Source of the DNA: Chamaesiphon sp. GL140_3_metabinner_50
GTDB lineage: Bacteria; Cyanobacteriota; Cyanobacteriia; Cyanobacteriales; Chamaesiphonaceae
Direction of reading: 5' to 3'
Length of the DNA: 45,182 bases
NCBI RefSeq assembly: GCF_025361915.1
Contig: NZ_JANYJC010000135.1
Coordinates: 1-45,182 of the forward strand
Shown: in pieces, positions 1,598-41,077 of the stretch
Layout of the letters: each line of letters opens with the position of its first letter
How positions within the stretch are numbered: position 1 is the stretch's first letter
The notes under the pieces: model-generated
What the model was told of the DNA's origin: nothing
Databases searched by the model: none
What the model saw: the letters and a program-made list of their open reading frames with translations, nothing else
Program-made: the position numbers and the translations under genes

Positions 1598-2030
1598 ATC
1601 GTAGTTAAGCCAAATTCGGTCGATCGGTAAGTACGATTGCTGCTGAAATTATTTCGCTCTTCAAGTTAAACCCGACTCGTACTTTAAGCCTTTTTGGCGA
1701 TTACCTTCGGTAGGTGATGCCAACGTTATAGTGTGCAGGGATACTTTTAAATAGCGATAATTAGCAAATGTTTGCGCTAGAATATTTCCAAGTATCAATA
1801 GTTAGCAAATTTGTGCGCTGTGATACTTTTAAATATCGATAGTTAGCAAATTTGTGTGCTGTGATACAGAAGTAGATACCCAACTTGAAATTAAGTTAAG
1901 AGTAAGATTTTTATATATGTTAAGTGAGATTTGAGTAGCCAAGATGCTTAACCTCAAACTTTAATAACTCTATCTAAAGAGTGATATATTACATTTAATT
2001 ACACAGTACTAAATAAAGCGCACTACATTT
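1598..2030 (+). promoter_or_regulatory. cphB-cphA intergenic region, probable cphA promoter region
   Basis: No coding sequence is evident. The stretch holds three 41-bp direct repeats (listed separately) followed by ~160 bp of AT-rich sequence up to the cphA ATG, which is a plausible place for the cphA promoter. I looked for the NtcA consensus GTA-N8-TAC by eye and did not find a convincing copy. No -10/-35 pair is assigned. Confidence 0.4.
1738..1867 (+). repeat. Three 41-bp tandem direct repeats upstream of cphA
   Basis: The core TTAGCAAAT occurs at 1761, 1802 and 1843, exactly 41 bp apart. Units run 1738-1778, 1779-1819 and 1820-1860; a fragment of a fourth (GTGATAC) follows at 1861. Each unit also carries a GATAC or GTATC-like segment and ends in GCGCT or GTGCT. 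Units 1 and 3 share ATACTTTTAAATA. The spacing is close to four helical turns, so the same face of DNA is presented repeatedly. Confidence 0.85.
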
Positions 2031-4775
2031 ATGAAAATTCTCCAAACCCAAACGCTTCGAGGCCCGAACTACTGGAGCATCCGCCGCTCAAAGCTGATTC
2101 TCGTGCGCCTGGATTTGGAGGATCTGGCCGATCGACCTTCTAATACCATTCCGGGGTTTTATGAAGGTTTAGTCGCAACTTTGCCCAGCCTAGAAGAGCA
2201 TCACTGCTCGCCGGGATGTCGCGGGGGTTTTTTGAGTCGGGTCAAAACATCGACAATGATGGGGCATATTCTAGAGCATGTGGCTCTGGAGCTGCAAACC
2301 CTAGCGGGGATGGAAGTTGGCTTTGGGCGCACCCGCGAGACAGCTACAGATGGCATCTATCAAGTCGCGATTGAGTACCAAATTGAAACCGCTGGACGTT
2401 ATGCCGTCAGAGCCGCACTCCGGCTGTGTGAGAGTATCGTCGATACTGGTAGCTACCCCACCGCCGAACTAGAGCGAGACTTGAACGATTTAATCGAGCT
2501 GCGGGATGAAGCCGCATTGGGAGCCAGCACCGAGGCACTAGTCCGCGAAGCTCACCGGATGGGCATCCCCTCGATGACGCTAGATACTTGCGATCTGATT
2601 CAATTTGGCTACGGTAAATATCAAAAACGCATTCAGGCGGCTCTAACTTCCCACAGCAACGTGCTGGGGGTAGAGTTAGCTTGCGATAAGGAACGTACCA
2701 AAAAAATTCTGGCGAGTATGGGCGTACCCGTGCCCGTGGGGATGACGATTGATTCCTTTGGCGAGTTGGCAGGCGCGGTCGAACGATTGGGCTACCCGAT
2801 CGTGATTAAGCCTTTAAATGGCAACCACGGGCGCGGTGTGAGTATCGATATCAAAACGTGGGAACAGGCAGAAGTCGCCTACGATCGCGCGCGGGATATC
2901 TCTAAAGGCACGATCGTCGAACACTTCTATCAAGGTCGGGATCACCGGATTTTGGTAGTAAATCACAAAGTCGTAGCAGTCGCCGAGCGCGTCCCCGCAC
3001 ACGTTGTCGGTAGCGGCTTGTGGACGATCGCCGCCCTAGTCGAGCAAGAGAATCAAAATCCGCAGCGCGGCAAGGGTCACGATAATATGCTCACCCAGAT
3101 TGAAATCGACGACTCGACCAAGGAACTACTCGATCGACAAGGCTATACCCTCGATACCATTTTACCAGAGGGCGAAATTTGTTACCTGCGGGCGACAGCA
3201 AATCTCAGCACGGGCGGGATCGCGATCGATCGTACCGATGAAATCCATCCCCATACCGTCTGGATCGCCGAGCGCGTCTCACACATTATCGGTTTAGATG
3301 TGATCGGGATCGATGTAATTACCACCGATATTACTAAAACCCTCGCCGAGGCAGATGGTACGATCGTCGAAGTCAATGCCGCACCGGGCTTGCGGATGCA
3401 CATCGCCCCCAGTCAAGGTGTCGGTCGGAATGTGGCTGCGCCGATCCTGCAAATGTTATTTCCCCCCGGAACGCCAACGCGAATTCCGGTCGTGGCAATT
3501 ACGGGTACTAATGGTAAAACTACAACCACCCGCGCGATCGCCCATATCTTCAGTCAAGTATATGATTCGGTTGGTTTTACCACTACCGACGGCATCTATA
3601 TCGGCGATCGTCTAGTCGAAAAAGGCGATACTACAGGCCCTCAAAGTGCCCAGATTATTCTCCAAGATCCGACAGTGGATATTGCCGTACTCGAAACCGC
3701 ACGCGGCGGCATTCTTCGCTCTGGGCTTGCTTTCCAATCCTGCGATGTTGGGGTGGTACTAAATGTCGCAGCCGATCATTTGGGCTTAGGCGATATCGAC
3801 AATATCGACCAAATGGCCAAAGTCAAAGCCGTCATCGCCGAAGCAGTTCACGCCGATGGTTATGCGGTACTGAATGCCGACGACGATCGCGTCGCGGCAA
3901 TGGCAAAGCATGTCGTCGGGAAGGTGGCTTATTTCTCGATGGACTCTGATAACCCCCTCGTTCGCGCCCACGTTCAGCGCGGGGGCATTGCTGCCGTGTT
4001 AGAAGAGGGCTACATTTCGATCTTGCAGCAAGATTGGGTACACCGGATCGAGAAAGTCGAGCGCGTACCGATTACCCTGGGCGGACGGGCACCATTTATG
4101 ATCGCCAATGCCCTCGCCGCGAGTCTAGCCACCTTCGTTCAGGGGATGAAAATCGAGCAAATTCGGGCGGGTTTACGCACCTTCCGGGCTTCAGCAGAGC
4201 AGACCCCCGGACGGATGAATTTATTCAACCTGGGCAATTATCACGCGCTAGTAGATTATGCCCACAATCCAGCGGGGTATGCAGCAGTTGGCAGTTTTGT
4301 CAAGAACTGGCCGGGTAAATCGATCGGAGTCATTGGCGGCCCAGGCGATCGCCGCGATGAAGATTTAATCGAATTGGGTCGGCTCTCTGCTACATTCTTC
4401 GATCGGATCGTCATTAAAGAAGATGAGGATCTGCGCGGTCGCGATCGGGGTGAAGTAGCCGCATTAATCGTCCAAGGGATCGCTCAAGCCAAAACCGAGA
4501 CTCCCGTCCCCCACACGATTCAGCTCAACGAAGGCGAAGCACTCGAATGGGCATTAGATCGGGCGGCTGATAATGCATTGGTGGCGATTTTTGCTGATAA
4601 TGTCACTCAATCGATCGCGCTGATTATGTCCCGCAATCCGATTGTTGATGATGTACCAGTAACATCGCCACCAGATCTCAAACTAGTCGGTTTGCCAATC
4701 GCTGCACCAATCGCGATCGGGAATAGCAACAACGGCGATAGTGCCCATGTATTGTCGGCAAAACCCAAGAGCTAG
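2031..4775 (+). CDS. cphA: Cyanophycin synthetase
   Basis: Makes cyanophycin (multi-L-arginyl-poly-L-aspartate) from Asp, Arg and ATP without ribosomes. Three parts are visible in 914 residues: an N-terminal domain with HHCSPGCRGGF (about residues 63-73); an ATP-grasp domain (about 200-470) with KPLNGNHGRGVS and EVNAAPGLRMH; and a Mur-ligase-like domain (about 485-880) with the P-loop GTNGKTTTT near residue 492, then LETARGGILR and DYAHNP. The first ATP-grasp site adds Asp and the Mur-type site adds Arg in known CphA. The length is slightly above the usual ~875-900 because of an extra Gly/Asn/Ser-containing tail. It follows cphB on the same strand, but the 433-bp gap and repeats suggest it also has its own promoter. 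Confidence 0.96.
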   Translation: MKILQTQTLRGPNYWSIRRSKLILVRLDLEDLADRPSNTIPGFYEGLVATLPSLEEHHCSPGCRGGFLSRVKTSTMMGHILEHVALELQTLAGMEVGFGRTRETATDGIYQVAIEYQIETAGRYAVRAALRLCESIVDTGSYPTAELERDLNDLIELRDEAALGASTEALVREAHRMGIPSMTLDTCDLIQFGYGKYQKRIQAALTSHSNVLGVELACDKERTKKILASMGVPVPVGMTIDSFGELAGAVERLGYPIVIKPLNGNHGRGVSIDIKTWEQAEVAYDRARDISKGTIVEHFYQGRDHRILVVNHKVVAVAERVPAHVVGSGLWTIAALVEQENQNPQRGKGHDNMLTQIEIDDSTKELLDRQGYTLDTILPEGEICYLRATANLSTGGIAIDRTDEIHPHTVWIAERVSHIIGLDVIGIDVITTDITKTLAEADGTIVEVNAAPGLRMHIAPSQGVGRNVAAPILQMLFPPGTPTRIPVVAITGTNGKTTTTRAIAHIFSQVYDSVGFTTTDGIYIGDRLVEKGDTTGPQSAQIILQDPTVDIAVLETARGGILRSGLAFQSCDVGVVLNVAADHLGLGDIDNIDQMAKVKAVIAEAVHADGYAVLNADDDRVAAMAKHVVGKVAYFSMDSDNPLVRAHVQRGGIAAVLEEGYISILQQDWVHRIEKVERVPITLGGRAPFMIANALAASLATFVQGMKIEQIRAGLRTFRASAEQTPGRMNLFNLGNYHALVDYAHNPAGYAAVGSFVKNWPGKSIGVIGGPGDRRDEDLIELGRLSATFFDRIVIKEDEDLRGRDRGEVAALIVQGIAQAKTETPVPHTIQLNEGEALEWALDRAADNALVAIFADNVTQSIALIMSRNPIVDDVPVTSPPDLKLVGLPIAAPIAIGNSNNGDSAHVLSAKPKS

Positions 4776-7182: not shown

Positions 7183-7329
7183 GGAGAGGGGGAGAGGGGG
7201 AGTAAGGAGTAAGAAGTAAGGAGTATGGAAAATCCCCTCCTTGGAGGGGTGCCCGTAGGGCGGGGTGGGTAGATCTTCGCTAAAACCTAAAACCTAAAAC
7301 CTAAAACCTAAAACCTAAAACCTAAAACC
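7183..7329 (-). repeat. Two heptamer arrays between a minus-strand hypothetical gene and the dihydrouridine synthase gene
   Basis: From 7201 to 7228 there are AGTAAGG/AGTAAGA units, preceded by G-rich GGAGAGGG copies. From 7281 to 7329 there are seven perfect TAAAACC units, read on the minus strand as TTTAGG-type repeats. The second array begins 4 bp after the stop of the minus-strand gene at 7334. A GC-rich unrelated segment separates the two arrays. Confidence 0.9.
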
Positions 7330-7333
7330 TAAA

Positions 7334-34216: not shown

Positions 34217-34288
34217 CTCCCATCTCCCATCTCCAAACTCCCATCTCCAAACTCCCATCTCCAAACTCCCATCTCCGAACTCCCATCT
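34217..34288 (+). repeat. Heptamer array CTCCCAT/CTCCAAA
   Basis: About ten 7-bp units, alternating CTCCCAT and CTCCAAA, so that a 14-bp higher-order period appears. It belongs to the same CTCCCAT family as the array before cphB. Confidence 0.9.
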
Positions 34289-40989: not shown

Positions 40990-41077
40990 GTAAGGAGTAA
41001 GGAGTAAGAAGTAAGAAGTAAGAAGTAAGAAGTAAAATTCCCTATCCACTATCCACTAAAAACTATTCACTAAAAAC
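40990..41077 (+). repeat. Heptamer arrays GTAAGGA/GTAAGAA and TATCCAC/TAAAAAC
   Basis: Seven units of GTAAGRA type (40990-41038), then five units of TATCCAC/TAAAAAC type (41043-41077), both with a 7-bp period. They fill most of the gap between petM and pdxA. Confidence 0.9.

Follow-up and report, generated by a model that had tools for sequence, protein, structure and literature searches.

In a 45,182-nucleotide contig of Chamaesiphon sp. GL140_3_metabinner_50 (the window), the 433-bp intergenic stretch between the cyanophycinase gene cphB and the cyanophycin synthetase gene cphA carries a 41-bp tandem array (1731–1867, plus strand), which on sequence grounds is probably (at a rough probability of 58%) an NtcA-type operator cluster, formed by tandem duplication of an NtcA box with a 27-bp spacer, whose proximal box would activate cphA. 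The NtcA consensus is GTAN8TAC, and cyanophycin is a main nitrogen reserve in many cyanobacteria. If this reading is true, a promoter without the strict NtcA consensus is explained without a new regulator. Moreover, if the upstream boxes in the 41-bp register strengthen or sharpen the induction of cphA, the array would be a natural test of cooperative clustered weak activator sites in bacteria.

Both cphB (752–1597; TIGR02069, 301.6 bits, cut-off 126.6) and cphA (2031–4775; TIGR02068, 1204.8 bits, cut-off 850) lie on the plus strand, and the position of the array in the promoter region between them agrees with the link to nitrogen that had been proposed from the sequence alone. TRF reported the array with a period of 41, 3.3 copies, 76% matches, no indels and a score of 162, and the direct repeat search found a 48-nt repeat in three copies (1731, 1772 and 1813) with spacings of exactly 41 and 41. 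Over all shifts, the best self-match of the 433-bp stretch was 65 of 82 positions at a shift of 41, and 500 dinucleotide shuffles of the same stretch gave a mean of 38.0 and a maximum of 44. Thus the exact 41-bp direct repeat described by the sequence-only reading is confirmed; the array ends at 1867 as it had placed it but starts at 1731 rather than 1738. Comparison of the edges shows that the array consists of three units, each made up of a 14-bp box and then a 27-bp spacer, with one more box at the end. The partial fourth unit noticed earlier is therefore present, but it is limited to the opening 14 bp of a unit (1854–1867), that is, the box alone, and the similarity breaks off at both ends of this element. 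The array is bounded by NtcA-like boxes at both ends. The full units are 28–35/41 identical. The core TTAGCAAAT lies within the three spacers on the plus strand (1761–1769, 1802–1810 and 1843–1851), at the 41-bp steps given before. Among the three full units, 20 of 27 spacer columns are invariant compared to 7 of 14 box columns (Fisher p 0.17); with conservation in the spacer equal to or above that in the box, there is no sign of selection on the box.

The strict form GTAN8TAC does not occur in the cphB-cphA intergenic region of the window. ChIP-seq in Anabaena, with 508 sites, found GTN10AC to be highly conserved and A3 and T12 to be just somewhat prevalent, according to the passages of PMC3898017 on this motif, and three of the four array boxes agree with this relaxed consensus as GTGN8TAC. 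Therefore, the earlier statement that no NtcA consensus is present holds for the strict form only. Motif matches on the plus strand identified box 0 (GTGTGCAGGGATAC, 1731–1744), box 2 (GTGCGCTGTGATAC, 1813–1826) and box 3 (GTGTGCTGTGATAC, 1854–1867), each GTGN8TAC, and the register of the array places between them a decayed box 1 (TTGCGCTAGAATAT, TTG...TAT, 1772–1785) that does not match GTRN8TAC; all four stand exactly at the 41-bp pitch. The left half-site of the three intact boxes is GTG in every case and never GTA. At least three GTRN8TAC matches appeared in 12 of 5000 shuffles of the 433-bp region, and three in a register of 41±1 bp appeared in none of 5000, while GTRN8TAC by itself is at the chance level across the window (19 seen, 22.3 expected). 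Because 41 bp corresponds to 3.9 helical turns of 10.5 bp, with an offset of about 34 degrees per site, the boxes lie close to one DNA face, as had been suggested for the repeat.

In canonical class II NtcA promoters, the −10 element TAN3T lies about 22–23 nt past the NtcA box, and the centre of the box is near −41.5 from the start site. A possible −10 element of this form, TAAGTT, is found at 1892–1897 (plus strand), 24 nt past box 3, compared to 22 nt at the organism's own urtA and one amt gene. No TAN3T was found 18–29 nt downstream of boxes 0, 1 and 2, so that the upstream boxes look accessory rather than like separate promoters, and a tandem promoter in every unit was rejected on the same result.

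We compared this region with the cphA promoters of close relatives; those with a name put the window within or close to the genus Chamaesiphon. In 9 of 11 close relatives, the 230 nt before cphA contain a perfect GTAN8TAC (shuffles: mean 0.27, maximum 2). With L056, which was outside the shuffle test, the count is 9 of 12, so the box is conserved at the orthologous place; none of 26 more distant loci has it. For these counts, L052, L053, L054 and L057 were treated as duplicates of L024, L028, L023 and L026, L064 was unused, and the upstream sequence of L036 and L058 was just 49 and 64 nt. The conserved box is missing from L023, L031 (GTAN8CAC) and L056. L023 is the closest relative by CphA (84%) and has no NtcA box at the conserved place; its GTAN8TAC at −390 lies off that place and was uncounted. 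Eight of the nine box-bearing relatives were aligned, leaving out L030, which belongs to another genus. Box 3 and the sequence downstream of it align to the relatives' cphA promoters without gaps, with GTGTGCTGTGATAC-AGAAGTAGATACCCAACTTGAAATTAAG of the window opposite GTATCCAGCAATAC-GGAATTAGAGCCTCAACTTGAAATTAAG of L026, and TGT...ATACnGAA and GAAATT are invariant in 9/9 aligned rows (the window and eight relatives). By position, box 3 is at −177 and a conserved TTGAAATT (1885–1892, plus strand) at −146, so that TTGAAATT starts 31 nt past the first base of box 3, and seven of the eight aligned relatives share this distance. Because it aligns with the relatives' GTAN8TAC, box 3 is most likely an altered descendant of the conserved NtcA box, and this positional correspondence argues against the earlier proposal of a regulator other than NtcA. 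The array thus most likely lies directly upstream of the conserved NtcA box place, with box 3 included in it.

NtcA and its usual sites are present in this organism. The genome encodes a normal NtcA (366 bits, cut-off 245), in which the stretch STRVTVTRLLGDLR, which we take to hold the recognition helix, is identical to that of the solved NtcA (PDB 8h3v), and perfect GTAN8TAC boxes are found upstream of two amt genes and urtA. Its own ntcA promoter contains a GTA box (GTATTCTGTGATAC) and then a GTG box (GTGATGTGTAATAC) 40 bp on. Across the family, all nine genomes in which ntcA was found, out of 11 searched, have two GTRN8TAC boxes in the ntcA promoter (loci L066 1201–1254 and L078–L085), spaced by 40 bp in six, 41 bp in two and 48 bp in one (L082), and the second box is GTG in two of the nine, the genome of the window among them. 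These results show that the GTG form and the 40–41-bp pitch both occur where NtcA sites are expected. In the genome of the window, an exact 41-bp box pair is found at one place, at cphA (0 with the reversed pattern as a control). Over 11 genomes, pairs at 40 bp are found at 18 places (six at ntcA, one at cphA; reversed-pattern control, 7) and pairs at 41 bp at 17 places (two at ntcA, one at cphA; control, 7), and the search at 40 or 41 bp is not specific in general, since unrelated places also matched. At cphA of L026, whose contig is common to Chamaesiphon polymorphus CCALA 037, GTRN8TAC boxes lie at −263, −221 and −181. They stand in unrelated sequence with no sequence repeat, and their register was found in 0 of 5000 dinucleotide shuffles, although the abundance of GATCGATC in this region may make such motifs more likely.

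We propose that a tandem duplication of an NtcA box and its 27-bp spacer before cphA may have generated the array. Under nitrogen limitation, NtcA, loaded with 2-oxoglutarate and helped by PipX as in published NtcA biology, would activate cphA by binding the box at 1854–1867 beside TAAGTT. At 1813 and 1731, the upstream boxes would be bound by additional NtcA dimers, aligned almost on one side of the helix, which could add occupancy or contacts with RNA polymerase, and the decayed box 1 could perhaps also bind NtcA. We infer NtcA binding, activation and cooperativity, as well as the −10 element and the start site. Against an NtcA cluster stand the GTG half-sites, the decayed box 1, the conservation of the spacer, the absence of the box from L023, the 24-nt spacing to the −10 element, the chance level of GTRN8TAC and the unrelated box pairs. 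A broader proposal, which we consider distinctly unlikely, is that a single strong GTAN8TAC gave way to a homotypic, lineage-specific cluster of weak (GTG) NtcA sites, that phased cooperative binding sharpens the response of cphA to 2-oxoglutarate relative to other NtcA targets, and that the pitch of about 41 bp arose separately at L026 cphA and at ntcA.

It is also conceivable, if somewhat unlikely, that replication slippage simply copied the box and spacer, with just the proximal box, or none, being functional and the upstream copies drifting. The limited identity of the full units (28–35/41), the decay of box 1 and a box conservation that does not exceed that of the spacer are all consistent with such neutral duplication, as are the abundance of other tandem repeats in the window and the uniqueness of the array to its own genome among those searched. 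However, boxes 0, 2 and 3 retain all six defining positions with their differences falling in N8, which is weak evidence since the differences are few, and the 40–41-bp pitch recurs at ntcA promoters and, in unrelated sequence, at L026 cphA. The conservation of the spacer could instead reflect another regulator bound cooperatively to the core TTAGCAAAT, which is invariant in all three copies within a spacer slightly more conserved than the box, and the genome also contains three other CRP-family matches that score below the NtcA cut-off. We consider this very unlikely, since the last element of the array is a box without a spacer and the spacer is absent from the family genomes and from the rest of its own genome. 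A SyCRP1/CRP site was also rejected: the consensus of the second CRP half-site is TCACA, and for TGTGA at 1819 and 1860 the second half matches it at 2/5 and 0/5 positions.

A function of the array as an RNA or DNA hairpin (serving as an attenuator or a processing site between cphB and cphA) is extremely unlikely. The plus strand of the whole array folds at −37.4 kcal/mol (z −3.5) and none of 200 shuffles was as stable, while the minus strand folds more weakly (z −1.5). However, the single units are unexceptional (z 0.58, −1.59 and −1.16, with 137, 17 and 27 of 200 shuffles folding as well), the stem of unit 2 is lost in unit 0, and the long stem is the pairing of two near-palindromic copies of AGCAAATTTGTG. 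The fold is therefore what two such copies give and is no evidence of a kept structure, and a conserved hairpin was rejected on the behaviour of the single units and the lost stem. An Rfam RNA was rejected since the array has no Rfam match, and an intrinsic terminator since no terminator-like site was found. Searches for further copies dismissed a dispersed repeat or mobile element in the same way. In the organism's own 3.86-Mb genome there is no second copy of the array (the next-best match of the 137 bp has an E of 0.04 over 26–29 bp), and a 30-base unit pattern with at most 3 mismatches matched two units of the array itself and nothing else. The array is absent from the 10 other family genomes, so that it is found in 1 of 11, and it has no match in plasmids. 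The many copies in unrelated gaps that mark a short tandemly repeated repetitive sequence were thus not seen, and a plain dispersed repeat, which the sequence-only reading had named as the outcome that would count against it, is not borne out.

The NtcA operator cluster favoured here can be compared with several known systems. Class II/III CRP-type promoters have tandem activator sites, with the proximal one near −41.5 and the upstream ones in phase, as with E. coli CRP; the proximal and upstream in-phase sites of the array would be alike in this respect, with spacing and synergy taken from E. coli CRP. The autoregulatory ntcA promoter likewise has GTRN8TAC boxes at a distance of about 40 bp, of which one is GTG in this genome, but it differs in having two boxes only and no sequence repeat, and its second box may belong to another promoter or coincide in part with the first start. 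For Anabaena, two NtcA sites in the ntcA promoter are mentioned in passages of PMC3898017. In the same passages, cphBA1 of Anabaena sp. PCC 7120 is a known NtcA target and cphB1 is named non-canonical. The cphBA1 promoter and the present one are alike in their cyanophycin genes and in NtcA control, which is predicted here, whereas the boxes here form a 41-bp tandem repeat directly before cphA and those passages of PMC3898017 describe no repeat. No report of a tandem NtcA-box array before cphA was found in the literature searched, in which subscription papers were mostly outside reach. NtcA control of cyanophycin genes is already known in Anabaena, as far as these passages go, and the box-delimited tandem array before cphA appears new within the literature searched.

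Other features were observed in the course of the analysis. A GTAN8TAC pair at 40 or 41 bp is also common to three genomes (L095, L099 and L110); in two of them, L095 and L110, its position is the beginning of what is presumably a phosphoglucosamine mutase-like gene. Within the window, TRF found 7-bp tandem repeats of TTTAGGC (9.9 copies), CTAAAAC (7.7 copies), the CTCCCAT type and GTAAGAA (6.6 copies) at 582–650, 7280–7333, 34217–34288 and 40990–41035, respectively, which we take to be of the cyanobacterial STRR kind. The gene order is the C-terminal part of argZ/ornithine cyclodeaminase (11–586), cphB (752–1597) and cphA (2031–4775), which places an arginine catabolism gene next to the genes of cyanophycin turnover.
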